From a virus, in the IMG/VR virus record IMGVR_UViG_3300048573_000396, positions 1-29,564 of that record: DNA of 29,564 bases. One strand, 5' to 3'. This document shows, piece by piece, positions 1,592-29,564 of the stretch (position 1 is its first letter; the number at the start of each line of letters is the position of its first letter). The notes beneath the pieces were generated by a model. The model was not told the DNA's origin and searched no databases. It was given only the letters and a program-made list of their open reading frames with translations. Made by a program: the position numbers and the translations under genes.

Positions 1592-1859
1592 GGTTTGGCC
1601 GATCTGCGGGCTTGAGCCAGCCTAGGTAGAAACCACGGCCATAGCTGATGGTGAAACCGCAAGTTACTGCGAACATGCCCCACTGGCTGGCGGTGAAGGT
1701 GGAGTAGAACCAAAAGGGCTGACCGAACAGGCCGATGATGCTGGCCCAGCGGCGCAGGCGGGCGTTTGGGTCTTGGTTGACCCATGCGGCAAGCACGCCT
1801 GTGACACCGATTAGGGTTTGGCTGATTACGGCGGGGGTGATTAGGGAGAGGTCGATCAT
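1584..1859 (-). CDS. Small membrane protein, function unknown
   Basis: A 91-residue protein with two or three hydrophobic segments (about residues 5-26, 38-55 and 58-75), so probably an inner-membrane protein. I do not recognise the family with confidence. Its ATG overlaps the stop of the methylase gene (ATGA), and its 3' end overlaps gpF by 8 bases, so it is translated as part of the portal-to-F operon. It belongs to a four-gene block not normally found between portal and F in Mu-like phages. It could be a superinfection or lysis-related membrane factor, or a partner of the gpF C-terminal domain; the sequence does not decide. Confidence 0.6.
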   Translation of the reverse strand: MIDLSLITPAVISQTLIGVTGVLAAWVNQDPNARLRRWASIIGLFGQPFWFYSTFTASQWGMFAVTCGFTISYGRGFYLGWLKPADRPNHG

Positions 1860-2656
1860 GGGCGCTCCAGCGGGTCAAAATTTGTCCACAGGCATTCAGT
1901 TTTGCGGCTGCCAGCTTGGGTGGTGTGCTGGATGTCGGTGCGGTACCAGTCTTTCAAAGCGCTGTCGTAGGCGATGTTGCGGTAACCGCTGAGGATGACT
2001 TTGCCTTTTAGATTATTGACGCACGAGAGCAGCTCGTAGTGTTCGGCTAGGCCGAAGGGCTGGTGGTAGACCTGCTTTTCCCGAAAATTGAGGGTGGATT
2101 CAACATAGGGTGGATCGACATAAAAGAGCGCGTCTTTTGCGTCTAGCACTAGCATGATTTTGACTGCGTCGATCTGCTCTATTTGAACATTTTTGAAGCG
2201 CTCAGCGGCAAAGGCTAGGCGATCGCCCATGCCGTTCCACGCCTCAAGGCGTTTGGTGTCGGTTTTACTTGTACGAAAGCCTGTTTTTTGATTCGCTAGA
2301 GATCCGTTGTAACTGAACCAACTGCGCACTAGGAATCGGCGAACTTGCTCCATAGCTGACGCGCTTGGGTCTATTTCGCGTGCGAGGTCTAGCTCTAGAC
2401 GGCTAAATGGCGTGAGCTCCACCAGTTTGATTAGCTTGTGAACCACGGCTGTGCCGCTGCGCAGCAGGCGAAACAGCTGGAGCAGCTCACCAAAAGTGTC
2501 GTTGTACCACTCAATGTCGGTGGGCGGCTTCGCTAACATGACGGCGGCTGAACCGCCGTAGGGTTCGCAGTACAGGCGGTGGGCAGGCATCATGGCGATG
2601 ATGCGATCACGCAGCGAGCCTTTGCTGCCGGGGTATTTAAGGATGGTACGGGTCAT
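1856..2656 (-). CDS. DNA adenine N6-methyltransferase, D12 (Dam) class
   Basis: A D12-class adenine methyltransferase of 266 residues from the chosen start. It shows the class hallmarks in order: KYPGSKG near the N terminus (SAM-binding entry), a YCEPYGGSAAV segment, and the catalytic DPPY at about residues 181-184. Such enzymes transfer a methyl group from SAM to N6 of adenine, and in phages they usually protect DNA from host restriction or alter regulation. The ATG at 2656 overlaps the stop of the ASCH gene (ATGA), and the protein then begins directly with MTRTILKYPG; an in-frame start at 2677 would add seven residues. The target site cannot be read from the sequence. Confidence 0.88.
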   Translation of the reverse strand: MTRTILKYPGSKGSLRDRIIAMMPAHRLYCEPYGGSAAVMLAKPPTDIEWYNDTFGELLQLFRLLRSGTAVVHKLIKLVELTPFSRLELDLAREIDPSASAMEQVRRFLVRSWFSYNGSLANQKTGFRTSKTDTKRLEAWNGMGDRLAFAAERFKNVQIEQIDAVKIMLVLDAKDALFYVDPPYVESTLNFREKQVYHQPFGLAEHYELLSCVNNLKGKVILSGYRNIAYDSALKDWYRTDIQHTTQAGSRKTECLWTNFDPLERP

Positions 2657-2934
2657 AGCAGCTTCATGTGGATGCAAGCGGCCACGCCGCCGCGCTCGCC
2701 GTAGACGGCTTGCCAGTCTAGGGAGGTGGTGGCGGTGGTGCTTTGGGTGAAGGCTGTGATGACGGCTTTTAGGCGGTGGTGTTTGCCGTAGCCTTTGCTG
2801 AGCGTTACCGCGCGGCCTACTGGGCAGGTTTGTTCGTTCCAGCGTTTGCCGTAGGGGCGGTATTCGGTGGTTTTTTTGCCTTCATAGAATTCCTCAAACC
2901 AACGGGAAGTGAGGGGAATGAATAGCGGTTTCAC
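2653..2934 (-). CDS. ASCH-domain (PUA-like) protein
   Basis: A 93-residue protein that looks like a whole ASCH domain: an N-terminal LFIPLTSRWFEEFYEGKK segment, then TTEYRPYGKRW, as in ASCH/PUA-like folds that bind RNA or modified bases. It starts with GTG overlapping the stop of the DUF5131 gene (GTGA) and its stop overlaps the methylase ATG, so the three genes are tightly coupled. ASCH genes next to DUF5131 genes occur in other prophages, which supports a joint role in nucleic-acid or nucleotide modification. The exact ligand is unknown. Confidence 0.7.
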   Translation of the reverse strand: MKPLFIPLTSRWFEEFYEGKKTTEYRPYGKRWNEQTCPVGRAVTLSKGYGKHHRLKAVITAFTQSTTATTSLDWQAVYGERGGVAACIHMKLL

Positions 2935-3920
2935 TCGGGCACCTCGTTATATTCCCGGCCATTCAATAATCTGCCTGCAAAGCGTTTGCCGACTTTTTCC
3001 ATGCCGTAGCTGGCTAAGCCTGGTGCCCATTCACCCCATTGCTTAAAAAAGAACGGTACGCTAGCTGCTTTACACTGATCGTGCAGACTTCGCACCCAGT
3101 CAGGATGCATGGGACGGGCGTTGTGGCCGGATTCTCCACCGACAATTACCCAATCTACAGTCGGCAAAGTGGTTGTTTTTTTAAAACAGTGGATACATTT
3201 TTCATTTTTTTGGAGTGCTCCCATCAATCCAACTTCATCTCTACGAAAACCGCATCTGCATTCAATGGCACGGCCACCTACAAACGGAGTAATGTCTACT
3301 GACCCAAGTAAGGGCTCAATGCTTAAAAAACGCTTTACAGCTGGCGTTTTGAGTAGTTTTTGGATGTCTCGGTCGGCTTCTTCTTGGTTGCAGATCGTGG
3401 CACCTAGCCAGACGTTGTGAGGGATGTTGCCATCGTTCGCGCCATGATGGGTGACATGTAGCGCAGCGGCGATCATCGTGTTTGCATTGCCGATGCGCTT
3501 TGTGAGCAGCAGCCAGTCTAGGTGCGGTGTTTTTTCGATTAATGAAAATAGATCGGCACGCCAGGCAGGGTCGATTGCGTTGTCAAAAACGTCTGCTAGC
3601 GATGCGCAGAATACTCGGGGGCGCTGAGGCTTTAGGAAGCCGTTGGCGAGGCACAGAGCCTCGTTGCCGCCATGCAGTGCTATGCCATGTTCCCAAGCAT
3701 GTTGCAGGATGCCTGCTTGCTTGTTCCATTGAAGAGGTTGCTTCCAGTTTTCTGGACTGGTACGCACGCGGGGCTGTCCTGCCCCCCATTGGATGCCCTT
3801 GGTTCGGGCTGGGGTGCTGACTGCGGCGTAGCAGTTGTCGCAGGCAGGGCTTATTTTGGTGCAGCCGATCCATGGGTTGAAGGTGTGGTCTGCCCATTCG
3901 ATTTTGGTGTTTTTCATCAT
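2931..3920 (-). CDS. DUF5131 / phage Gp37-Gp68 family protein
   Basis: A 329-residue member of the phage Gp37/Gp68 family (DUF5131). The N terminus carries the family signature TKIEWADHTFNPWIGCTKISPACDNCYA, given here as two parts: IEWADHTFNPW and a C-x6-C-x2-C cluster ending in CYA. A central LDWLLLTKR and a VDWVIVGGESG motif follow, as is usual. An extra four-cysteine insert (C-x-C...C-x2-C, about residues 218-245) suggests a bound metal. The family is often described as radical-SAM-like, but the spacing is not the standard C-x3-C-x2-C, so activity is unproven. ATG codons at 3920 and 3917 overlap the portal stop. It sits first in the cargo block and probably acts with the ASCH protein. Confidence 0.82.
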   Translation of the reverse strand: MMKNTKIEWADHTFNPWIGCTKISPACDNCYAAVSTPARTKGIQWGAGQPRVRTSPENWKQPLQWNKQAGILQHAWEHGIALHGGNEALCLANGFLKPQRPRVFCASLADVFDNAIDPAWRADLFSLIEKTPHLDWLLLTKRIGNANTMIAAALHVTHHGANDGNIPHNVWLGATICNQEEADRDIQKLLKTPAVKRFLSIEPLLGSVDITPFVGGRAIECRCGFRRDEVGLMGALQKNEKCIHCFKKTTTLPTVDWVIVGGESGHNARPMHPDWVRSLHDQCKAASVPFFFKQWGEWAPGLASYGMEKVGKRFAGRLLNGREYNEVPE

Positions 3921-5506
3921 GCCACCTTGGTTGCTGCGCCGCGCAGCATGGCGTAGCTTAGGGCGCGGTCTAGGACTTCACGCAGGGCTTCGGGGTCTAG
4001 AGTGCCTGTCATGTCTTCTAGGGCGGTTTGGAATTGGGCTAGGGTTTTGCCGTCGGCTTCAAACTGGGCGAGCATGGCGGCTATGGGGGCGATCATGGTG
4101 TCTTCGATGGCTTGGTCGGCGGCATCGGCGGCTAGCTGCATGGCTTCGTCTTCTGTCATGCCTGCTGCCTTGGCAAACTCAAAGCCTGCTATTCCGTCAA
4201 AAGCTGTGAAGCTGGAGCTGGCAGGATCTGCTGTTTGGATTGCTGTTGGGTCGGGTTGGTTGTCGCTGCCCTGTGCTTGGCTGGGCTTACCCATGGGCAG
4301 CAATGCGTCGGCATCGTTTTCGGCCACGGGTATGCCCAGCTCGTCGAGCATGGCGGATGCGCTGGGGCGTGCGCCCATGTCGGCGGCTAGTTTGTAGGTT
4401 TTGGCGCGGGCTTCGGTGCCTTGGTTTTCTTGGTAGAACTCTAGGGTGGGTGCTGGCACATCGTCGCCAAAATTGAAACGGGTGATCCAGCCAAAGATTT
4501 GGCACATGGACTGGGCAGCGATGTCGCGGTCGGAGTCGTGGATGCTGTTTTGGCGGGTCATTGCGGTGTCGGCCGCTGCGCGGCTGCCCACTTCTAGCTG
4601 TTCGCCGACCATGGCTTGGCCTGTGATGGCTTTGCTCATCTCGCGGTTGCACAACATGATCAGGCGCTCTTGCGGCAGATTGCTGCCGCTGCTGGTGGGG
4701 GTAAGCAGCTCTAGCTTCGTGCCTTCGGGTGCCATGACATAGCCCGCTTCGAGCATGCCTGCCAGTGCCTCGGCGAGTTTGTCTTGGTCGGCCTCGCCAG
4801 TGCCTTGGGGGAACTGGGCGTAGGGCCATGGCAGGCCGTGTCGCTCGCAGTATTTGACAAAGAAGCGCCAGCCCCCTGTTTTGAATGTCCATGCCCAAAA
4901 GCAGGCGGACAAAAGCGCCCTTCCGTAGGGGTTGGTGGCGGTGGCCATATGGCGGCTGATGACGAACTGGTAGGGCTCGACGGGTGCGCCCATGGGGCTG
5001 TTGCGGCTGACCAATAGCGGGTTGCCCAAAGGGTCGAATTTGATGCGACGGCCCGGACGCTCTAGCACCTCTAGTGGCAGGTGGTATTGGCCGCTGTAGC
5101 CCCATATTAGCTCGTGCGGGTTGTAGCCTGTGAGCACGCTGGAGGTCATTTGCCACATGACTTCCAACCAATCGTTGATGTTGTTGGGCTTGGTTTTTGC
5201 TAGCCATTGCTCGCAGCATTCTTTGGCTGCGGTGGCTTTGGCATCGTTGGCCTCGCCACCGCTTTGCACGCGAAATTTATGGCTGCGAAAGCTGCCGCGC
5301 ATGGAACGAATTTCGCCCATGACATGGGGGTCGGCCATGATGCTGGAATAGACCTGCTCGGCTTTGCCCATCTGGCGCAGGATGGGATCGGGATTGGGCA
5401 GGGCTACAAAGCTGCCAAAGTAGCGCTCGGGGTCGGTGTCGGGCCCGGCGATGGGTTTGCCGAGCCAGCCTTTCATGGTTTGAATCAGTCCGCGTAGGGG
5501 GAGCAT
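3917..5506 (-). CDS. Portal protein, Mu gp29-like (DUF935)
   Basis: A 529-residue DUF935 protein, the portal of Mu-like phages. Twelve copies form the head vertex through which DNA is packaged and ejected. Recognisable segments include PDTDPERYFGSF near the N terminus, the SVLTGYNPHELIWGY block, a GRALL..CFWAWTFKTGGWRFF block and KAITGQ. The tail end is rich in Ala, Asp and Glu. The ATG at 5506 is preceded by AAGGAA four bases upstream. It lies directly after the large terminase gene and, unusually, is separated from gpF by four cargo genes. Confidence 0.92.
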   Translation of the reverse strand: MLPLRGLIQTMKGWLGKPIAGPDTDPERYFGSFVALPNPDPILRQMGKAEQVYSSIMADPHVMGEIRSMRGSFRSHKFRVQSGGEANDAKATAAKECCEQWLAKTKPNNINDWLEVMWQMTSSVLTGYNPHELIWGYSGQYHLPLEVLERPGRRIKFDPLGNPLLVSRNSPMGAPVEPYQFVISRHMATATNPYGRALLSACFWAWTFKTGGWRFFVKYCERHGLPWPYAQFPQGTGEADQDKLAEALAGMLEAGYVMAPEGTKLELLTPTSSGSNLPQERLIMLCNREMSKAITGQAMVGEQLEVGSRAAADTAMTRQNSIHDSDRDIAAQSMCQIFGWITRFNFGDDVPAPTLEFYQENQGTEARAKTYKLAADMGARPSASAMLDELGIPVAENDADALLPMGKPSQAQGSDNQPDPTAIQTADPASSSFTAFDGIAGFEFAKAAGMTEDEAMQLAADAADQAIEDTMIAPIAAMLAQFEADGKTLAQFQTALEDMTGTLDPEALREVLDRALSYAMLRGAATKVA

Positions 5507-10023: not shown

Positions 10024-10069
10024 GAGTGTGGAGAATGTGCGCCGCTGGGGCGTGGTGAACTAGTTCACC
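10018..10069 (-). promoter_or_regulatory. Predicted activator-dependent late promoter for lysis/packaging operon
   Basis: A perfect 16-base palindrome GGTGAACTAGTTCACC at 10069-10054 is followed leftward by CACACT at 10030-10025 and GGGCT ending at 10018. These elements lie at the same distances as in the two plus-strand copies near 21176 and 28176. With the palindrome centre taken as -43.5, CACACT occupies -12 to -7 and the start is near 10018. The palindrome overlaps the stop codon of the gene before it. Recognition by the Mor-family protein is inference. Confidence 0.65.
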
Positions 10070-10560
10070 GTGGGGGGGTGGATCTCGGTAGATTCGTCTA
10101 GGCAGTAAGCGCGAATGGTGCACCTACAGTAGACATGGGTGCATTGCGCAGGGATGTGATTAAGCCAAAAAATAGACTCGAAGTGTTCGACCTGCCCCGT
10201 TCTATTTTTGCATGCAAGTGGGTCGCGGCTGTCGCCAGCAGCTCTAAATTGCCACAAAGGTCGACGCTGGGTGTTGGCAAGTAACTGAGGCATTCTAAAA
10301 GTCCAATGTGCGTCACGAAGGATTCGGTGGCAGAGCGCCGCGACCATGCGTGCACGGGTAGGCCGATTACCGATACGGAGTGCATATGTTTCGTAAGCAG
10401 GCCAAATCCACCTCTCGCTTGGGCAAACACTGCCCACCAATTTTTCCAGCTCCCTAGTGCTTCCAGATTCAACCGCGCACTTAATGTTAATTGTCTGTGC
10501 AGTCAGAACCGTGGGGATTAAATGTGCCCAAATTTCAGTTTGCTTTAGCTGCTCAGTCAT
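10060..10560 (-). CDS. Stand-alone protein related to the gpF core
   Basis: A 166-residue protein. Its residues about 90-150 match the diagnostic core of the phage's own gpF: QLLANTQRRPLWQFRAAGDS here against QLIANADRRPYLQYRTAGDS there, then FW, a shared H, and CRCTIRAY against CRCTVRAY. The first 85 residues do not obviously match gpF, and there is no C-terminal effector domain. It is the third gene of the repressor operon, so it should be made in the lysogen. Possible roles are interference with head assembly of incoming phages or regulation of gpF; neither is shown. The Shine-Dalgarno is poor. Base composition is closer to its lysogeny neighbours than to the head genes. Confidence 0.65.
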   Translation of the reverse strand: MTEQLKQTEIWAHLIPTVLTAQTINIKCAVESGSTRELEKLVGSVCPSERWIWPAYETYALRIGNRPTRARMVAALCHRILRDAHWTFRMPQLLANTQRRPLWQFRAAGDSRDPLACKNRTGQVEHFESIFWLNHIPAQCTHVYCRCTIRAYCLDESTEIHPPTVN

Positions 10561-20554: not shown

Positions 20555-21069
20555 AGCCCAGCACGCCCCTGCCCACCCTGCGGCTGGCGCACGAGGCGCT
20601 GCCTGCGAGCCTGCGCCAGCTGGTAGACGAGCTGGGCGAGGCGGGTGCGCTGCGCTTTACGGGGGTGTATGGCGGGCAGCGGGTGAGTGTGCCTAAACAG
20701 CCGCTGGCTGAGCACCCGATGCGGGCGGCGCTGGGGGGCATCTTGTTTGAAACACTGGTAGACCGCTGTGCTGGCCTGAGCATGGATGTGCCTAAGTGCG
20801 ACGGCTTTTTGCGGGAGCTGCGCCATGAGCAGGTGCGCCAATACCGCGAGCAGGGGCTGACGATGGATGAGATAGCGGGCGAGACAGGGTATTGCAGGCG
20901 GCATGTGATCAACATACTGCACGGCGAAGCGGGGGTGGACACGCATACGCTGGATATGTTTGCAGAGCCCAAGCCCACTGCCCCGCTGGCTGCGCCGCGC
21001 AGCTATGCAGGGATGGCCAATGACCCTTTTGGAATGGGTGGTAGCATTGGGATGCGTGACCCCGTTTAA
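20551..21069 (+). CDS. mor: Middle/late transcription activator, Mor family
   Basis: A 172-residue member of the Mor/C activator family. Residues 60-85 form the dimerisation part, and VRQYREQGLTMDEIAGETGY-C-RRHVINIL is the helix-turn-helix. Mor and C bind dyad sites centred near -43 and recruit RNA polymerase at promoters that lack a good -35. The window holds three such candidate sites with one shared palindrome, one just downstream of this gene. A C-terminal tail of about 30 residues is low in predicted structure. It is the only Mor/C protein in the window. Confidence 0.85.
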   Translation: MKPSTPLPTLRLAHEALPASLRQLVDELGEAGALRFTGVYGGQRVSVPKQPLAEHPMRAALGGILFETLVDRCAGLSMDVPKCDGFLRELRHEQVRQYREQGLTMDEIAGETGYCRRHVINILHGEAGVDTHTLDMFAEPKPTAPLAAPRSYAGMANDPFGMGGSIGMRDPV

Positions 21070-21148
21070 AACCCGTTCACAACCGCGCACAAGCCCCTGA
21101 ATGATTGGGGTTGCCCACTGGTAGCCCTGCCACACTTTTAAGCCCCCT

Positions 21149-21169
21149 AGCCCCCGCTTGGGGGCTTTT
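21149..21169 (+). terminator. Terminator after mor
   Basis: GCCCCC-GCTT-GGGGGC (21150-21165) followed by TTTT. It ends the gemA-mor transcript and lies seven bases before the palindrome of the next promoter. Confidence 0.85.
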
Positions 21170-21175
21170 GCTTTT

Positions 21176-21227
21176 GGTGAAGTATTTCACCATGCCGCTG
21201 CGCGCTTAAAACGCGACAGTAGCGGCT
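21176..21227 (+). promoter_or_regulatory. Predicted activator-dependent promoter for head/tail operon
   Basis: GGTGAAGTATTTCACC at 21176-21191, then GACAGT at 21215-21220 and GCT ending at 21227. The spacing is the same, without gaps, as in the copies at 10069-10018 and 28176-28227. If the palindrome is centred at -43.5, the start is 21227, one base before the ATG of the protease gene. Confidence 0.7.
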
Positions 21228-22466
21228 ATGACAACCCAAGCCGCCCCTAGCACTGCCCCCAGCACCTCCAAGCCTAGCCCACTGGCGGGGTGGATAGAAG
21301 TGTTTAAGGCGGGGGCGCATACCGACAGCGCTGGCAAGCGGATGAGCTTTGCGGTGGCTGACCTGGAGCAGATGGCGGCGAACCATGCGCTGGGGGCTGC
21401 GCCTGCGGTGCTGGGCCATCCTAAGCATGATGACCCAGCTTATGCGTGGGTGGATGGCTACAAGGTGGATGGCAGCTCGCTGTATGCCAAATTTAACGAC
21501 ATTAACCCGGCCTTTGATGCGGGGGTGGCCAGCGGGGCTTACCGCAACCGATCGGTGAGTGTGTATAAGGATGCGGCGCAGGGCTGGCGGGTGCGGCATG
21601 TGGGCTGGCTGGGTGCAGTGCCGCCCGCGATTGATGGGCTGAAGCCGCTGGCCTTTGCTGCGCCGGATGCGGACTGCTTTGAGTTTGCTGCGCCGGGCTA
21701 TAGCTTGGTGTGGGGGCTGGAAAGTGTGGGCAAGCTGCTGCGCGGGCTGCGCGAGCAAATGATCGCCAAAGACGGCCTAGAGGCTGCTGACAGTGCCCTG
21801 CCGCAGTGGCAGATAGATGGCGCGATGGAGTCTGCCGCCACGGCGCGGCGCGAATTTGATGAGGCTGAGCCTAGCCGTGCGCTGGGGCGGCTGTATGCCA
21901 GCCCTGACCTAAATTTACAACCCGATGGAGCAACTATGACGATTACCCAAGAGCAGCTGGATGCTGCCCATGCTGCGGCTGTGGCCGCTAAAGCGGAAGC
22001 CGATGCGGCCAAGGCAGATGCGGCCACAGCGCGCGCAGACTTTGCCAAGGCGAACACCGACCTAGCGGCGCTGCGCAGCGCTGAGCAGGCTACGCGCATT
22101 GGCGGCCAAGTGGAGCGCTGGAAGGCGGCTGGCAAGCTGACAGCGGCTGAGGCGGCTGGCATGGCGGAATACATGGTGTCGCTCGAAGCGGTAAGCACCA
22201 GTGAATTTGCCTTTAGCAAGGCCGATGGCAGCGCGGGCAAGCTGACCCCGTACCAGTTTCATATAGCGTCGATTGATGCGCGTGCGCCGAGCATCAAGCT
22301 GGGGCAGCAGGGTGCGGCCGATGACGGTGGGGCGCTGGATGTGGGTGATGCGGCTGCTATTGCGGCGAGCGCACGCAGCTTTATGGCCAGCGAGCAGGCG
22401 GCGGGGCGTGTGGTGAATATCGCCATGGCGGTAGACCATGTGACCAAGGGCGCGGCTGGGGCTTGA
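21228..22466 (+). CDS. Head maturation protease and scaffold, Mu gpI-like
   Basis: A 412-residue protein of the Mu gpI family. The protease half (about residues 20-155) begins after a Ser/Pro/Thr-rich leader with GWIEVFKAG, and includes VLGHPKHDDPAYAWVDG and GAYRNRSVSVY, the segments conserved in the family. The second half is Ala-rich coiled coil and acts as the scaffold. The protease trims the scaffold after prohead assembly. No Shine-Dalgarno precedes ATG 21228, and the predicted transcript starts one base before it, so initiation would be leaderless. Confidence 0.88.
   Translation: MTTQAAPSTAPSTSKPSPLAGWIEVFKAGAHTDSAGKRMSFAVADLEQMAANHALGAAPAVLGHPKHDDPAYAWVDGYKVDGSSLYAKFNDINPAFDAGVASGAYRNRSVSVYKDAAQGWRVRHVGWLGAVPPAIDGLKPLAFAAPDADCFEFAAPGYSLVWGLESVGKLLRGLREQMIAKDGLEAADSALPQWQIDGAMESAATARREFDEAEPSRALGRLYASPDLNLQPDGATMTITQEQLDAAHAAAVAAKAEADAAKADAATARADFAKANTDLAALRSAEQATRIGGQVERWKAAGKLTAAEAAGMAEYMVSLEAVSTSEFAFSKADGSAGKLTPYQFHIASIDARAPSIKLGQQGAADDGGALDVGDAAAIAASARSFMASEQAAGRVVNIAMAVDHVTKGAAGA
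21936..22466 (+). CDS. Internal in-frame scaffold protein (Mu gpZ-like)
   Basis: A second start within the protease gene, in the same frame. ATG 21936 has GATGGAG with GGAG at 21927-21930, five bases upstream, and begins MTITQEQLDAAHAAAVAAKA. The 176-residue product is the coiled-coil scaffold half alone, as in Mu, where the I gene also yields the separate scaffold Z. The strong internal Shine-Dalgarno contrasts with the lack of one at the full-length start. Confidence 0.75.
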   Translation: MTITQEQLDAAHAAAVAAKAEADAAKADAATARADFAKANTDLAALRSAEQATRIGGQVERWKAAGKLTAAEAAGMAEYMVSLEAVSTSEFAFSKADGSAGKLTPYQFHIASIDARAPSIKLGQQGAADDGGALDVGDAAAIAASARSFMASEQAAGRVVNIAMAVDHVTKGAAGA

Positions 22467-22507
22467 TGCCGCAGCGGGGCTGATTTAACTTAAACAGGAG
22501 TATTGCG

Positions 22508-22885
22508 ATGAGCAACTTGATTCGACAGAACCCGGGCTATGTGGCTGCGGCGGCGATGGCGGCGTTTGCGGTGATTAAGCCCGGCGCGGTGGATGGCGCA
22601 TGCCTGCCTGCCACGGCAGCCACTGACTTGCTGCTGGGTGTGAGCGATGGGCTGGCTAAAGATGTGGGCGAGATGGTGGATGCGCCGAGCGCGGGGGTGG
22701 GCGAGGTGCGCTTGGGTGCGGCGGTGACCCGTGGCCAGAAGCTGACGGCGGATGCCAGCAGCAAGGCAGTGCCCTGCGCACCAGGCGCGGGGGTGAACCA
22801 CCACTACTTTGGCGTAGCGCTGCAAAGCGGTGTGGCCGATGACGTGGTGTTGTACCAGGTGGGCTTGGGCGTGATGCAGGGCTAA
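22508..22885 (+). CDS. Capsid cement/decoration-like protein (DUF2190 type)
   Basis: A 125-residue protein between scaffold and major capsid genes. It has the DUF2190-like pattern: GEVRLGAAVTRGQKLTADAS, then KAVPCAP and VALQSGVADDVV, as in small beta-barrel head decoration proteins. It probably stabilises the capsid by binding its outside. AGGAG precedes the ATG. Confidence 0.75.
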   Translation: MSNLIRQNPGYVAAAAMAAFAVIKPGAVDGACLPATAATDLLLGVSDGLAKDVGEMVDAPSAGVGEVRLGAAVTRGQKLTADASSKAVPCAPGAGVNHHYFGVALQSGVADDVVLYQVGLGVMQG

Positions 22886-22937
22886 GGCTTTGCCTGTCAC
22901 ACAAGTGTATTAACAAATTTTGAACTGGAGTTGAACC

Positions 22938-23876
22938 ATGGCTAAAGCCCCTTTTGTGATTACCCCCGAGCTGTGCGCGGTGGGTGTTGGCTACAAAAAT
23001 GCCAAGATGATTGCCGACGATGTGTTGCCACGTGTGCCGGTGAGCAGTGAGTCGTTTAAATACCAAAAATTCCCGATGGGGGAGTTTTTTACGGTGCCTG
23101 AGACCCGCGTGTCGCGCAAGGGGCAGCCTAACCAGGTGGAGTTTAGCTCGACCGAGGTGAGCGATTCGGTGGAAGACTATGGGCTGGATGCGCCTGTGCC
23201 GAATAAAGACATTAAGAACGCGGCGGCGCAGGCCAAGCAGACTGACCCGCGCAAGCGTGCAGCGATGGGGCTGATGGATTTGATAGAGCTGCGCCGCGAG
23301 GTGCGTGCGGCTAGCTTGGTGTTTAACGCGGCCAGCTACAACGGTGCTAACCAAGCCACACTGAGCGGGACTGGCCAATGGAACGACTACACCAATAGCA
23401 ATCCGCAAACGGCGATTATGGATGCGCTGGACACGATGATCATGCGCCCGAATATCGCGACCTTTGGCCGCGCGGCTTGGACAAAGATTAGCCAGCACCC
23501 CAAGTTGTGCAAAGCGGTGTATGGCAATAACACGGATGCGGGGGTGATCAGCCGTGCAGCGTTTGCCAACCTGCTGGAGCTGGACGATGTGTATGTGGGC
23601 GAAGGCTGGGTGAATACGGCCCGCAAGGGACAGCCTGTGAACATGGTGCGGGTGTGGGGCAAAAACGCTGCGTTTTTGTACCGCAACATGAATGCGGACA
23701 CGGAGTATGGCATGACCTTTGGCATGACGGCGCAGTGGGGCGAGCGCGTGGGCGGGGAAATTGAAGATGCGGACATTGGCATATATGGCGGCGTACGGGT
23801 GCGTATGGCTGAGTCGGTGAAAGAGCTGGTGACGGCGAACGACTTGGGCTATTACTTTCAAAACTGCGTGGCGTAA
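22938..23876 (+). CDS. Major capsid protein
   Basis: A 312-residue major head protein of the BcepMu-like type, distinct from Mu gpT. It begins AKAPFVITPELCAVGVGYKN and has an E-loop-like MGEFFTVPETRVSRKG segment, a helical RKRAAMGLMDLIELRREVRA stretch and a beta-rich C terminus. It forms the HK97-fold shell. GGAG lies seven bases before the ATG. It is followed by a weak terminator that may set the high capsid level. Confidence 0.88.
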   Translation: MAKAPFVITPELCAVGVGYKNAKMIADDVLPRVPVSSESFKYQKFPMGEFFTVPETRVSRKGQPNQVEFSSTEVSDSVEDYGLDAPVPNKDIKNAAAQAKQTDPRKRAAMGLMDLIELRREVRAASLVFNAASYNGANQATLSGTGQWNDYTNSNPQTAIMDALDTMIMRPNIATFGRAAWTKISQHPKLCKAVYGNNTDAGVISRAAFANLLELDDVYVGEGWVNTARKGQPVNMVRVWGKNAAFLYRNMNADTEYGMTFGMTAQWGERVGGEIEDADIGIYGGVRVRMAESVKELVTANDLGYYFQNCVA

Positions 23877-23894
23877 AAAACCGCTGGTGAAACG

Positions 23895-23915
23895 GGGGGC
23901 TTGCGCTCCCTTTTT
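23895..23915 (+). terminator. Weak terminator or attenuator after the capsid gene
   Basis: GGGGGC-TTGC-GCTCCC with one G:T pair, followed by TTTTT. It lies in the 62-base gap after the major capsid gene, where partial termination would give more capsid than tail transcript. Confidence 0.6.
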
Positions 23916-23938
23916 GTAAACATTGACTGGAGTGGATG

Positions 23939-24313
23939 ATGGCTAAATTACTGGTACTGGTGGCTTGCATAGCCCTGAGCAGAGTGGAACACGACGGGGT
24001 GAAGTATGGGCCCGGCGAGGTGGCGGGGGCGCGTTTTGAGTGCCTGCCCGAGCAGGCCGATGCGCTGGAGGCGGTGGGTGCGGTGGCGCTGGCCGAAGGC
24101 TATGTCAATGTCGCTGCGGTGGCTTTGGTGCAGGCGGGCACTGGTGTGGACGCTGCGGCTGATGCGGCTGCGGCGCTGGCCGAAGCGCAAGCGGAGCGTG
24201 ATGCGGCGCTGGTGGAGCTGGAGGCGCTGCGTGCGCAAGCGGCAATGGCTGCGACGGCTACTGGTGAAGTGGCGACCGCGACCGCGCCTGCCCCTGCGGC
24301 TAAAAAGCGCTAA
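23939..24313 (+). CDS. Small head-region protein, DUF7210-like
   Basis: A 124-residue protein. The N-terminal half has VEHDGVKYGPGEVAGARFEC and a QADALEAVGAVALAEG block, as in small beta-fold proteins that follow capsid genes. The C-terminal half is an Ala/Glu coiled coil (ALAEAQAERDAALVELEALR) with a basic KKR end. I place the start at ATG 23939, six bases after GGAG; ATG 23936 is too close. Function is unknown. Confidence 0.65.
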   Translation: MAKLLVLVACIALSRVEHDGVKYGPGEVAGARFECLPEQADALEAVGAVALAEGYVNVAAVALVQAGTGVDAAADAAAALAEAQAERDAALVELEALRAQAAMAATATGEVATATAPAPAAKKR

Positions 24314-24324
24314 GGTAGCCTGCC

Positions 24325-24882
24325 ATGGCCTATGCCACGCCCGCGCGGGTGATTCAAGAGTTTGGGCTTGCCGAGGTGACCCAGCTTTTGGCTGACGAGG
24401 AGCAGCTGCTGACTGGCCAGCTGCTGCTGGACGCGCTGGCTGTGCAGGGCACAGGATTTTGGACGGGCGAGCCCAGCGAAGCGGAGCGCAGCGCTGCCAG
24501 CGCGGCAGCGGCCAAGCTGCTGCGCAAGCTGGAGACCACCAGCAATATGATGGATGGCTACCTGCGCAGCGCGGTGCGCCTGCCGCTGGCCCCCGCTGAT
24601 GCGAATGCGGGGACGCTGGAGGAATGCTGCTGCGCCCTGGTGCGCTGCGGCTTGGCCGATGACACGGACAATGCCACCGAGCGCATGGATGCTGGCTGCG
24701 CTACATGGCGCACTTGGCTCAAAGATGTGGCACGCGGGGTGGTGCAACTGGTTGGCAGCACGGGCGAGGCGGTGGCGGCTAACCCCAAGAGCGGTACACG
24801 CACTGGGCAGGCAGCCACTGGCTTTGACTGGGCCAGGCATGCGGGCTGGACGCAGGGCGCTGCGCAGGGGATGTGGCCATGA
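24325..24882 (+). CDS. Head-tail connector-type protein, Mu gp36-like (DUF1320)
   Basis: A 185-residue DUF1320 protein. The N terminus YATPARVIQEFGLAEVTQLL and the central DGYLRSAVRLPLAP block are typical. In Mu-like phages it lies between capsid and tail genes and is thought to be part of the head-tail interface. The end overlaps the next gene by ATGA. Confidence 0.85.
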   Translation: MAYATPARVIQEFGLAEVTQLLADEEQLLTGQLLLDALAVQGTGFWTGEPSEAERSAASAAAAKLLRKLETTSNMMDGYLRSAVRLPLAPADANAGTLEECCCALVRCGLADDTDNATERMDAGCATWRTWLKDVARGVVQLVGSTGEAVAANPKSGTRTGQAATGFDWARHAGWTQGAAQGMWP

Positions 24883-25322
24883 GCGGCACGACGATGCACA
24901 TGACGTTTGCGGATGCGGCCATTGGCCAGCACCTTGCCCGCTTGGCGCAGCTGGATGCGGGGCACTTTGGAGCGATCAAGCGCGAGATTGGCGAGTTTAT
25001 GGTGGCGGACATCCAAGATAACTTGGATGGGCAAAAGCTGTTTGACGGCCGCGCCATGCCGCAAAGCGCAGCGGCGATTCAACGCACTGGCAAAACACTG
25101 ATTAAAGACCACCACCTGTATGACAGCTATGTGTTCCAAGCTGTAGACCAAGGCATAGAGCTGGGCAGCGAAAAGGTGTATGCCCGCATCCACCACGAAG
25201 GCGGCATGGCGGGGCGTGGGCACAAGACAAAAATAGTGGCGAGGCCTGTGATGGGCATGGGGATGCGGCAGGAGCGGGGGCTGGGCGACTTGCTGATCAA
25301 CGAGATAAGGGCTTTGCAATGA
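24879..25322 (+). CDS. Virion morphogenesis protein, Mu gpG-like
   Basis: A 147-residue protein of the phage virion morphogenesis family (Mu gpG, P2 gpS tail completion). It includes the typical IGEFMVADIQDNLDGQKLFD and a short ARIHHEGG motif near residues 104-111. It works at the end of tail assembly. ATG 24879 overlaps the previous stop; an earlier in-frame GTG is less likely. Confidence 0.85.
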   Translation: MSGTTMHMTFADAAIGQHLARLAQLDAGHFGAIKREIGEFMVADIQDNLDGQKLFDGRAMPQSAAAIQRTGKTLIKDHHLYDSYVFQAVDQGIELGSEKVYARIHHEGGMAGRGHKTKIVARPVMGMGMRQERGLGDLLINEIRALQ

Positions 25323-25918
25323 GCACGGCCCTGCTCACGCAAGCGCTGGCTTTTGTGCGGGCGCAGTTTACACGGCAGGAGCTGGCTACGGTGCAAGCCT
25401 ATGGCGGCGAATTTAGCAGTGCCGAGGTGGACAAAATAGGATTTAACTGCCCAGCGGTGTTTATTACCGTGCTGGGCTGGGACGGTGCGACGAACAGCAA
25501 GCAGCTTACGGGACGCTATGCCCGCAAACTGCGTATGGCGGCTTTTGTGGTGTGTAAAGCGCCTAAGCGTGAAGCGCGGATGCTTGGGGCGATGCAAATA
25601 GCCGACAAGCTGGCACTGGTGCTGCGCGACTGGGAGCCTGCGAATGTCAGCACCAACCCTTATACGCTGGCCGCGCCAGAAGACGAGCCGAGCTGCGAGA
25701 ACCTGTATACCCGCGCGGTCGACCAACTGGGCTTGGCGGTGTGGCTGGTGCGCTGGGAGCAATGCGTGAAGCCGGAGGCAGGCATACCCCAGCTGGTGGA
25801 CTGGCTGCGGGTGGAGATAGAAGACACGGTTCGCAGCACTGAGCCAGAGCCTGCGCCCGCACCTGTGCTGCCTGACTTGGTGGTGACTGAGGCGATTGCG
25901 TTTGCGCCTATCCCTTAA
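25319..25918 (+). CDS. Tail terminator-type protein, Mu gp37-like
   Basis: A 199-residue protein in the place of Mu gp37. It has QAYGGEFSSAEV, a beta-rich middle and RAVDQLGLAVWLVRWEQ. The last 30 residues are proline- and glutamate-rich. It is thought to cap the tail tube. The ATG overlaps the gpG-like stop (ATGA). Confidence 0.7.
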   Translation: MSTALLTQALAFVRAQFTRQELATVQAYGGEFSSAEVDKIGFNCPAVFITVLGWDGATNSKQLTGRYARKLRMAAFVVCKAPKREARMLGAMQIADKLALVLRDWEPANVSTNPYTLAAPEDEPSCENLYTRAVDQLGLAVWLVRWEQCVKPEAGIPQLVDWLRVEIEDTVRSTEPEPAPAPVLPDLVVTEAIAFAPIP

Positions 25919-25947
25919 TTTTTAACCTGAACCTTTTGGAGTGCCAC

Positions 25948-26175
25948 ATGGCTAAAACTGATATTGACAAAACGACTGCTAGCCCTGCCGCAGCCCCCAG
26001 CTTTGAGGCTGCGCCGCGCATGGGTGAGCTGATTACGGTGCGGGTGGCCACGGGCGTGGCGCTGGTGAATATGGAGACGGGGCTGGACTTTGCGCCGGAG
26101 ACTGACACGCTGCAAACGGTGGGCGTGGTGACGCTGCGCCGCTTGGCCGATGGTGACTTGGTGCGCGTGGCGTGA
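25948..26175 (+). CDS. Small tail-region protein, Mu gp38-like (DUF2635)
   Basis: A 75-residue DUF2635-type protein with ITVRVATGVALVNMETGLDF and TLRRLADGDLVRVA at the C terminus. ATG 25948 is chosen because TTTTGGAG lies six bases upstream; an earlier in-frame start would include that site. The gene sits just before the sheath gene, as in Mu. Function is unknown. Confidence 0.78.
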   Translation: MAKTDIDKTTASPAAAPSFEAAPRMGELITVRVATGVALVNMETGLDFAPETDTLQTVGVVTLRRLADGDLVRVA

Positions 26176-26187
26176 AGCCCGATTGAC

Positions 26188-26231
26188 AACGATTTACACA
26201 AGCGTAAAGAACGATTTAAACAAGCTTTAAC
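26188..26231. repeat. Tandem 22-base repeat before the sheath gene
   Basis: Two adjacent copies (26188-26209 and 26210-26231) beginning AACGATTTA, with 18 of 22 bases the same. The second runs into the repeated translation leader. It probably arose by slippage; no role is evident. Confidence 0.6.
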
Positions 26232-26240
26232 TGGAGAAAA
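26226..26240 (+). repeat. Repeated translation leader, copy 2
   Basis: TTTAACTGGAGAAAA with the Shine-Dalgarno for the sheath gene; identical to the copies before the DUF3164 and tube genes. Confidence 0.7.
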
Positions 26241-26242
26241 AC

Positions 26243-27692
26243 ATGGCCTTGCCTAATTTGCTGAACCTGAACTTTAAAGTGCCGTATGTGGCAGCGAAGA
26301 TTGACTTTAGCCGCGCGGTGCGTGGCCTGCGGGGTATGCCGCGCAGGCTGCTGCTGGTGGGGCACAAGCTGGTGGCGGGCACACTGGCGCTGAACACTAT
26401 CATGACAGTGAGCAATGAGCCTGATGCGATTGCCCGACTGGGCGAGGGCAGCCAACTGCTGGCGATGTGGCGGGCGGCGAACGCGAACCGTGACCTGGGC
26501 CTGCCGATAGATGTGGTGGCGCTGGCGGTGAACGGCAGTGCCACAGCGGCGAGCAGCACGCTGGTGGTGGGCGGTGCGCCTACGGAGGCGGGGGAGGTGA
26601 TGGTGTATGTGCACGGGCGACACGTCGGCCAGCATTGCCACTAAGCTGATTGCGGCGGTGAATGCCAATGCCAAACTACAGGTGGTGGCCAGCGCCGGTG
26701 CGGCTAGCACCATGGTGCTGACGGCTAAGACGCTGGGCCCCACGGGCAATGACATTAACCTGCGCAGCAGCTACTACCCAGACGATGCGCTGGCCGCTGG
26801 CGTGACACTGAGCACCCCGGCTATGGCGGGCGGCGCGGGCAACCCGGATGTGAGCCCACTGGTGGTGGCGATGAGCGGCTACCGCGCCACTGAGATTGTG
26901 TGCCCGTTTACCGACAGCACGAACATGGCCATACTGGAGGCCGAGCTGGCCACGCGCTGGGCGTATAACAATATGCAGGACGGCATGGTGGTGAACTGCC
27001 TGCGCGGCACGGAGGGCGGCATCAGCGCCCTGCTGACACCGCGCAACAGCCCGCATGTGCATACTATTTGCGTGACCAATGACTGCACCAACCCATGGGA
27101 AACGGCCGCGATGGCGGGAGCGGCGATAGAGAGCAGCGCGGCCACTGACCCTGCGGTGGGGCCGACGGCCAAGCTGCTGGGCTATGCAGGCCCGGTGCAA
27201 GGCCAAGGCTTTGTGGTGGATGCCATGAACAACTTGATGCTCAAAGGCGGTAGCCCTCTGAACATTGCCCCAGACTACACGGGCAGCTTGCTGCGCATGT
27301 TTACCAACTACAAGCTCAGCCCAGGTGGTGCGGCCGATGAGAGCATGGCGCAGATGCCTTGGCTGAAAACGATGAGCTACTGGCGCTGGTTTATTACCAG
27401 TGAGTTCATGAACAAATACAACAACAATGGCTATAAGTTGGGCCAGTATGTGAAGCAGCCGATACCGGGCCAGAAGATTATGACGGTAGATTTGGCGCAG
27501 GAGATTATGCTGGGGCTGTACCAAACGTTTGTGGATGCGGGGATGATGCAAAACTTGGCGTATTACCAAGGCAAGCTGCTGGTTGAAATTGACGCGCCCA
27601 ACGGTAAGCTGAAGATTGTGGAAGAACCCGTGATATTGACACAGCACTACCAGTCTGAGGTGACCAGCTATGTGGTGGCTGGGCAGGTGTAG
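26243..27692 (+). pseudogene. Contractile tail sheath gene, frameshifted (Mu gpL-like)
   Basis: This gene should give the sheath that contracts to drive DNA injection. It is split into two overlapping frames: 26243-26644 (starts MALPNLLNLNFKVPYVAAKI, ends soon after VMVYVHG) and a +1 frame through about 26607-27692 (GDTSASIATKLIAAVNANAK, sheath core, and C-terminal EVTSYVVAGQV). Both halves are sheath-like, and the reading frames must be joined for a working protein. The joint seems to lack about eight residues expected between VYVHG and GDT, so a small deletion (3n+2 bases) near 26611-26618 is more likely than programmed slippage. A sequencing indel cannot be excluded. Confidence 0.8.
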
Positions 27693-27713
27693 CCAGCGCT
27701 TGGGTAAACGATA

Positions 27714-27728
27714 TTTAACTGGAGAAAA
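27714..27728 (+). repeat. Repeated translation leader, copy 3
   Basis: TTTAACTGGAGAAAA with the Shine-Dalgarno for the tube gene; identical to the copies at 16781 and 26226. Confidence 0.7.
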
Positions 27729-27730
27729 TA

Positions 27731-28099
27731 ATGGCAGATTCAAGTTTGTTTCACGTGGACGTGATTGTGGTGGATGGGCAGGCGCTGGCTTTTGAGGACA
27801 GCTCGGGCATGATCAGCGGGGCGGCGGGCTTTGAAAATGAGGCCAAGCTGAGCGCCAGCGGGCCGGACTACACGCTGCGCAAGCGGGTGGCGCGGGTGCT
27901 GAAAGCCAAGCTGCAATACACGGGGGCGGTCACGCCAGACCAGTTTGCGGCAATGAAGGATGTGCAAATCGCGCTGCGCGACACGGTGAGCGGGCGCAAA
28001 TGTGTGGCCGATGGCGCTAGCTTTAAAAGCTTGGGGGATGTGGGCAGCGGCGTGGTGGATGTGGAATTTAACCTGCTGCAAGCGCTGAAATGGCTCTAA
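27731..28099 (+). CDS. Tail tube protein, Mu gpM-like
   Basis: A 122-residue tail tube protein of the Mu type. It contains VDGQALAFEDSSGMISGAAG, KARVLK-like LRKRVARVLKAKLQYTGAV and a C-terminal VVDVEFNLLQALKWL. It forms the inner tube through which DNA passes. The expected partner, the sheath, is just upstream. The repeated leader provides a strong Shine-Dalgarno. Confidence 0.88.
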   Translation: MADSSLFHVDVIVVDGQALAFEDSSGMISGAAGFENEAKLSASGPDYTLRKRVARVLKAKLQYTGAVTPDQFAAMKDVQIALRDTVSGRKCVADGASFKSLGDVGSGVVDVEFNLLQALKWL

Positions 28100-28133
28100 G
28101 CCACTAGCGGCCTGCGGGCTGCACACGCAACAC

Positions 28134-28169
28134 AAAAGGGCGGGGGCGCACAAACCCCTGCCCTTTTTT
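28134..28169 (+). terminator. Strong terminator after the tube gene
   Basis: Stem 28138-28146 with 28155-28163 (one G:T pair, eight-base loop), preceded by AAAA and followed by six T, so it could work in both directions. It ends the head/tail operon before the third late promoter. Confidence 0.88.
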
Positions 28170-28175
28170 GCGTTT

Positions 28176-28227
28176 GGTGAAGTGCTTCACCACGCCCGCG
28201 CGGGGGGATGTGGTGACACTGGGTGCT
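28176..28227 (+). promoter_or_regulatory. Predicted activator-dependent promoter for tail operon
   Basis: GGTGAAGTGCTTCACC at 28176-28191, GACACT at 28215-28220, GCT ending at 28227. It shares every spacing with the copies at 10069-10018 and 21176-21227, and TGACA(C)T and GCTATGAC with the latter. The predicted start is one base before the ATG of the next gene. Confidence 0.7.
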
Positions 28228-28806
28228 ATGACTGAAACCCCTACGCGCATTGAAGACTTGTACCAATTGGTGGTGCCCGATGGCCTGCCTATGCAGGTGG
28301 ATGGCCAAACCATTTATTACCGCACGCTGCGCCTGCGCGAGACCACGGTGGGTGATGAGCGCAAAGCCGAGGCTATGAGCGAGCGGGCTATGCTGGTAAA
28401 TGGCGGCTACAAACTGCTGGTGAGTGAGAGCAACTTTAAGCATGCGCTGAATATGCTGCATATAGAGTCTTTTGCCTGCGATGGCCAGACGATCGGGCTG
28501 GGGCTGATAACGCTGGAGCTGTATGACAAGCTGAGCGCGCGGGATTTGGAGCTGGTGGAGCAGCGCATATTTTTGCTTACACTGGCTGCTGAGGTGCGCT
28601 ATGGCAATATGGCGCTGGCTGAGTTTGAGGGAATTATGGCGGGCATGGCCACCCAGAAAGCAGCGCCGCCCCCACAGCCCGTGGGCCAGACTGCGGCAGT
28701 GGGAGAGCCTACTGGCCTCGCTGAGTCTGGCCCTGCAATGCTCGCCGACTACGCTGGAGACGCTGCCCACGGGCAGACTGGTGGCGCTGGCCAAACAGGT
28801 GTTTAA
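28228..28806 (+). CDS. Tail assembly chaperone, Mu gp41-like
   Basis: A 192-residue protein of the tail assembly chaperone class that precedes the tape measure gene. The core (about residues 5-135) includes GQTIYYRTLRLRETTVGDER and NFKHALNMLHIESFACDGQT. The end after residue 148 is low-complexity and Gly-rich, as expected of the unshifted form. The start is ATG 28228, giving MTETPTRIEDLYQ, with no clear Shine-Dalgarno and a predicted leader of one base. A second frame overlaps its 3' end and would be joined by frameshifting. Confidence 0.82.
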   Translation: MTETPTRIEDLYQLVVPDGLPMQVDGQTIYYRTLRLRETTVGDERKAEAMSERAMLVNGGYKLLVSESNFKHALNMLHIESFACDGQTIGLGLITLELYDKLSARDLELVEQRIFLLTLAAEVRYGNMALAEFEGIMAGMATQKAAPPPQPVGQTAAVGEPTGLAESGPAMLADYAGDAAHGQTGGAGQTGV

Positions 28807-28825
28807 AAGCCCTGCAAAGCCATAA
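28673..28825 (+). CDS. Frameshift extension of the tail chaperone
   Basis: A +1 frame (equal to -2) relative to the chaperone. It encodes about 50 residues including WESLLASLSLALQC and SPTTLETLPTGRLVALAKQV, which look like a real chaperone C-terminal domain. A run of five C at 28669-28673 (CCG CCC CCA in the chaperone frame) is the candidate slippery site: a +1 slip at CCC, or a -2 slip as in Mu gp41-42. The joined product would be about 198 residues. No separate good start exists for this frame. Confidence 0.65.
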   Translation, partial: HSPWARLRQWESLLASLSLALQCSPTTLETLPTGRLVALAKQVFKSPAKP

Positions 28826-28854
28826 ATAACGCCGTTTAAAGCCATTAAAACACC

Positions 28855-29564
28855 ATGCGCGAACTCAAACTGCGGTATTTCATCGAGCTGGCCAGCAACA
28901 TTGGCGCTAAGGCCCGCACCGAAGCGCAGGCACTGGAGCAATCGCAAAAGGCTATGCAAGACGCGGTGGGCAAAACTGGCCAAGCGGTGGGCAGGCTGGA
29001 CTCGGCCTTTATGCGCTTTGCAGCCAACAGCGCTACCGAACGGCAAATTGGTTATATGCAGCGCTTGGGCCATGGCATAGACGCTGCGGCCAGCAAAATG
29101 CGCACACTGGGGACGCTGACTGCCAAGGGGCTGGAGAAAGCCCCGGGGGCTATAGCAGGAGCGGCGGCTGGGTTTTATGTGGCCAAGGCGGCGATAGACA
29201 AGCCGATGGACTACAGCCTAAAGCTTGGGCATATGAGCAACACCGCTTTCTCCAAGCGCGATACGGTCGGGCGCATTGCGGGCAAGGCTGAGCTGAACGA
29301 GGCGATTATGTCGGCCATACTGCCCGACTCCAATGGCAAAGGCGGTGGTGGGACGCGGGATGAAGCTGCTGCTGCGCTGAATGAGCTGCTTGGCTCTGGT
29401 GTGGTTGATTTTGATGAGTCAAAAGCACTGCTACCGAAGCTGATGTCGGGTGCCAGTGGCACGGGCGCGACTGCGCAGCAATTGAGCATGATTGCCCTGC
29501 GTGCGAAGCAAAACATGCGCATCCCTTTGGCTGATGTTGGCGAATTACTTGACGAGGCCAACAC
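28855..29564 (+). CDS. Tape measure protein, 5' part (cut by the window)
   Basis: An open frame of at least 236 residues with no stop before the window ends. It starts MRELKLRYFIELASNIGAKA, followed by a helical and Ala-rich stretch (KGLEKAPGAIAGAAAGFYVA), as in tape measure proteins that set tail length. The region after residue 100 has KLGHMSNTAFSKRDTVGR and an NAEL-like helical part. The gene lies directly after the chaperone and its frameshift extension, as in Mu. The Shine-Dalgarno is weak. Confidence 0.8.
   Translation, partial: MRELKLRYFIELASNIGAKARTEAQALEQSQKAMQDAVGKTGQAVGRLDSAFMRFAANSATERQIGYMQRLGHGIDAAASKMRTLGTLTAKGLEKAPGAIAGAAAGFYVAKAAIDKPMDYSLKLGHMSNTAFSKRDTVGRIAGKAELNEAIMSAILPDSNGKGGGGTRDEAAAALNELLGSGVVDFDESKALLPKLMSGASGTGATAQQLSMIALRAKQNMRIPLADVGELLDEAN

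Follow-up and report, generated by a model that had tools for sequence, protein, structure and literature searches.

The tail sheath gene (the homologue of Mu gene L) of a Mu-like phage of the TJ1/KS10 group has, with good if incomplete confidence, been broken by a recent 29-bp frameshifting deletion in the window analysed here, i.e. the whole 29,564 bases of IMG/VR record IMGVR_UViG_3300048573_000396. The deletion allele comes from this one record only, and it is most likely an ordinary loss-of-function deletion (less likely an assembly error), not a new kind of gene. An earlier reading of the sequence alone had already taken the gene to be broken across two frames, and both the ORFs and their matches to consecutive parts of the sheath family phrog_165 bear this out. 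The two frames are:

26243 to 26644, plus strand: N-terminal sheath fragment of 133 aa, made of sheath residues 1-125 and 8 out-of-frame residues (RHVGQHCH), followed by a stop.
26607 to 27692, plus strand: C-terminal sheath fragment of 361 aa, in a frame open from 26601 with its first ATG at 26607, matching sheath residues 134-492.

The first frame is sheath-like up to GEVMVYVHG and then continues as RHVGQHCH to the stop, and the second picks up the sheath at MCTGDTSASIATKLI (from DTSAS). Thus, the ORF translations hold both the loss of sheath character past VMVYVHG, in the frame that ends at 26644, and the resumption at MCTGDTSASIATKLI that the sequence-only reading had described, and the difference between the ORF starts (26607-26243 = 364 = 3n+1) agrees with its frame change of +1; the two frames overlap. 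Within phrog_165, the first ORF matches positions 10-128 (7.7e-24) and the second positions 134-466 (1e-70), so that both N- and C-terminal parts belong to the Mu-type sheath family; a single uninterrupted ORF of approximately 490-500 codons is not present in the window (133 + 361 aa). The N-terminal fragment also matches phrog_5292, and Pfam gave no match for either piece. The window copy is, therefore, a broken member of the Mu-type (phrog_165) tail sheath genes.

By its gene content the window reads as a fragment of a Mu-like transposable phage, a fragment since the record, which is identical in extent to the window, ends within the tape measure gene. The minus strand carries genes for a MuF-type head protein, portal, terminase, endolysin and repressor, and the plus strand those for transposase, transposition protein, late activator, protease, capsid, neck, sheath, chaperone and the start of the tape measure; the sheath gene lies in the Mu-type position, between the neck/terminator genes and those of the tube, chaperone and tape measure. 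The closest named relative is Curvibacter phage TJ1, with which the window shares its gene order. No relative was found in a scan of genome contigs and no near match in the plasmid collection, and the sole match in the phages collection is 49 bp long and lies elsewhere in the window than the sheath.

Some further features of the window may be recorded here. A small 166-aa protein (10060-10560, minus strand) has a MuF-like match (phrog_220, 1.3e-5) and is also a second match of the TJ1 MuF-type protein, the full MuF-type gene lying at 350-1591. Between the MuF-type and portal genes (1856-3920, minus strand) are a DNA methyltransferase gene and a phrog_2045 gene (function unknown), where TJ1 has only small ORFs. 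At 28168-28825 (plus strand) the tail chaperone ORF is overlapped by a 74-aa ORF in the +1/-2 frame, which is possibly the extension produced by a Mu-type -2 frameshift; in phage KS10 no slip site was found (PMC2628397).

The strongest evidence on the nature of the break comes from a sister contig, IMGVR_UViG_3300046093_000209 (8,919 bp), which was obtained by scanning viral contigs with the second ORF. It aligns over its full length to window positions 20614-29503, without a mismatch in the 8,890 shared bases and with a single gap, of 29 bp, and encodes the sheath as an intact single ORF of 492 aa. Residues 1-125 of the window sheath are 100% identical to the sister protein, in which ten residues absent from the window, QRISVAASTA, stand between YVHG and DTSAS. 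The small deletion of 3n+2 bases that had been proposed is thus recovered by alignment to the sister contig as a loss of 29 bp, with no other change, and the number of missing residues, previously put at about eight, is corrected to ten. Two features define the site:

26618 to 26619, no strand: deletion junction, at which 29 sister-contig bases are absent; the placement is unambiguous and the exact break is without microhomology.
26612 to 26617, plus strand: GCACGG, the left copy of a 6-bp direct repeat, whose second copy lies in the sister contig at a distance of exactly 29 bp downstream, immediately ahead of the far end of the deletion.

The sister contig stops 61 bases short of the end of the window record, and 29503-29564 contains no repeated 15-mer.

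The long form of the gene is ancestral, and the window form derived, since relatives carry the missing stretch in one open frame. Indeed, 24 of 25 further IMG/VR loci cover the break site, all 24 in a single frame and with no stops; TJ1 and KS10 also span it in one frame; and TJ1, KS10 and the IMG/VR relatives (49-74% identical) keep counterpart residues, e.g. ERVSVGVTTA in TJ1. In each of the 60 phage records listed as matches of the intact sheath, the match is in one piece. A conserved two-frame structure with a slip site in related phages, which the sequence-only reading had named as the finding that would speak against it, was sought and not found among the 24 further IMG/VR loci and the listed phage records. 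As the relatives that cover the site are all single-frame, the split is not a conserved frameshift. The absence of any substitution in the 8,890 shared bases suggests that the event is recent, or that it arose in the laboratory or during assembly. With a near-identical allele that is intact and otherwise the same, and with the long form being ancestral, the window gene has the features of a recent deletion pseudogene. As a separate observation, two short PHROGs families cover the N-terminal part only (phrog_5292, 129 positions) or the C-terminal part only (phrog_11048, 157 positions) of the sheath, which suggests that sheath genes are broken or split in further records too; naturally split sheaths, sought via phrog_5292, were discarded, all 18 records searched with this family having open frames of 481-562 aa there.

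The same comparisons bear on programmed +1 frameshifting at GGG-CGA, by which the two frames would be fused into a sheath lacking ten residues. A step after the GGG codon does give YVHG-DTSAS, and CGA is rare in the window phage (6 of the 232 arginine codons counted); however, a gene expressed by a programmed frameshift would be recognized by a conserved two-frame layout and slip site, neither of which was found in the relatives compared, a whole strand would still be absent from the fusion, and a tail takes up a great number of sheath copies (138 in phage T4; PMC3004832), likely far above the yield of weak slippage. We regard this explanation as highly improbable.

A more serious competitor of a real deletion, although still an unlikely one, is an artefact of assembly, amplification or library construction, in which the source DNA would be intact and the 29 bases would have been lost in a chimeric read, during whole-genome amplification or by graph simplification. 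The otherwise identical sister contig indicates that an all but identical phage has the gene intact, the window is an uncultured IMG/VR record, and a short repeat near the break would favour amplification chimeras as well. On the other hand, the accuracy of the rest of the record argues for a real allele: 8,890 bases agree exactly with a second contig, and all other genes compared are in frame. Each TJ1 protein matches the window in one frame, the sheath excepted. In a scan with 7,372 ORFs of relatives, 47 were split between frames of the same strand at the sheath junction, and no comparable split was found in any other window gene; the other split entries come from single or few queries, except those at position 5460 (24 queries), which, from their coordinates, we read as stop-to-stop ORFs over the terminase/portal boundary, the first piece being a shadow frame of the terminase. 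The window is thus not generally error-ridden. Furthermore, a clean loss of 29 bases is unlike a homopolymer-type error, and no repeat is of a length that could mislead an assembler. Collapse of a repeat, considered separately, was rejected, the longest repeat touching the break being 11 bp, so that a misassembly of this type is not expected. Given the accuracy of the rest of the contig and the lack of any repeat of assembler size, we consider a real allele to be clearly, but not overwhelmingly, favoured over an artefact.

If the deletion is real, it was probably generated by slipped replication or short-homology misjoining near the GCACGG direct repeat. A 6-bp run at a lag of 29 within 10 bp of the break is reached at 1.1% of the gene positions at that lag; however, since the exact break lies two bases past the repeat and without microhomology, an origin by slippage is only suggestive. 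A hairpin-driven deletion was discarded, as the region folds no better than shuffled sequences (z = 0.56).

Translation from the normal start would then yield the 133-aa truncated product, with the remainder of the gene in another frame. The consequences may be appreciated on a model of the intact sister protein, built from 22 sequences (mean pLDDT 78.3, 94-96 around the break site) in place of a poor model from 7 sequences (55.3). It is modelled as a Mu-type sheath, its best PDB matches being the phage Mu chains 9khy and 9ki1. In this predicted structure (pLDDT 94-96) the lost residues 126-135 span a whole beta-strand (126-132), which adjoins strand 117-123. The Mu sheath is built of domains I-III together with an N-arm and a C-arm, and adjacent subunits are interlocked through their arms (PMC11915804). 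A sheath cut off after residue 125 would be without roughly its last three quarters, the C-arm included, and, therefore, should not polymerise normally. Most likely, a genome with the deletion allele would have no working contractile sheath, and the phage would probably be defective unless an intact copy came to its aid, such as the one, identical elsewhere, that is present in the same collection (IMG/VR).

Whether the downstream frame might be translated on its own depends on one more feature:

26593 to 26601, plus strand: Shine-Dalgarno-like stretch GGAGGTGAT, 5 bp before ATG 26607, which also forms Gly-Glu-Val-Met codons and is unchanged in the intact copy.

Of the 673 plus-strand ATGs, it is, by coincidence, ATG 26607 that pairs best with the anti-Shine-Dalgarno sequence (-18.7 kcal/mol, rank 1), and translation of the C-terminal piece from it is plausible. 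It could be proposed that this piece, starting at ATG 26607 behind GGAGGTGAT, from the strong internal ribosome-binding site at 26593-26609, pairs with the N-terminal one and that the two-piece sheath still assembles; besides the first-ranked pairing, the overlap of the two frames, the use of two proteins, TssB and TssC, in T6SS sheaths (PMC9230969) and, in our own reading of the model, the position of the break in the outer insertion domain, the most variable part between sheaths (PMC11915804), are in keeping with such an arrangement. However, in the intact sister copy the equivalent ATG is out of frame and opens only a 23-aa ORF, and, since the Shine-Dalgarno stretch is found there too, with nothing but this short ORF to serve, it is best seen as a by-product of the codons. 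Furthermore, the split is unique to the window record, with no split relative and no pair of co-conserved proteins of the TssB/TssC type, a beta-strand kept by the relatives is absent from both pieces, and there have been no substitutions since the deletion and, therefore, no sign of selection. An assembling two-piece sheath is thus held to be very improbable, and a plain loss-of-function deletion is preferred.

The significance of the finding is mostly one of housekeeping: the record merits annotation as having its sheath gene disrupted, and the collection also contains the same phage with this gene intact. In addition, a pair of viral contigs set apart by a single indel over nearly 9 kb is a clean case, useful for checking the reality of short-deletion alleles in viral assemblies.

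Among known systems, gpL (gp39) of Escherichia phage Mu (PDB 9khy/9ki1) is of the same family and fold as the intact copy (phmmer 8.3e-44; Foldseek 1.0e-37 and TM 0.72 for the modelled sister sheath) and occupies the same place in the late operon, but it is encoded in one unbroken frame, whereas the window sheath is cut by the 29-bp deletion. The same holds for the sheath of Curvibacter phage TJ1 (QDB70142.1), which is 73.6% identical over 492 aa to the intact sister copy, with the same flanking gene order, and for gp37 of Burkholderia phage KS10 (49% identity over 490 aa, same operon layout), their genes being unbroken at 491 and 492 aa, respectively. The TssB/TssC pair of the T6SS shares with the window only the fact that two coding frames jointly cover a sheath: it is a conserved two-gene system, whereas here a lone gene is interrupted, in a single record, and has lost residues. 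Loss-of-function indels of phage and prophage structural genes likewise show one frameshifting deletion in a phage sequence that is otherwise intact, and the present case differs from them only in the gene affected.
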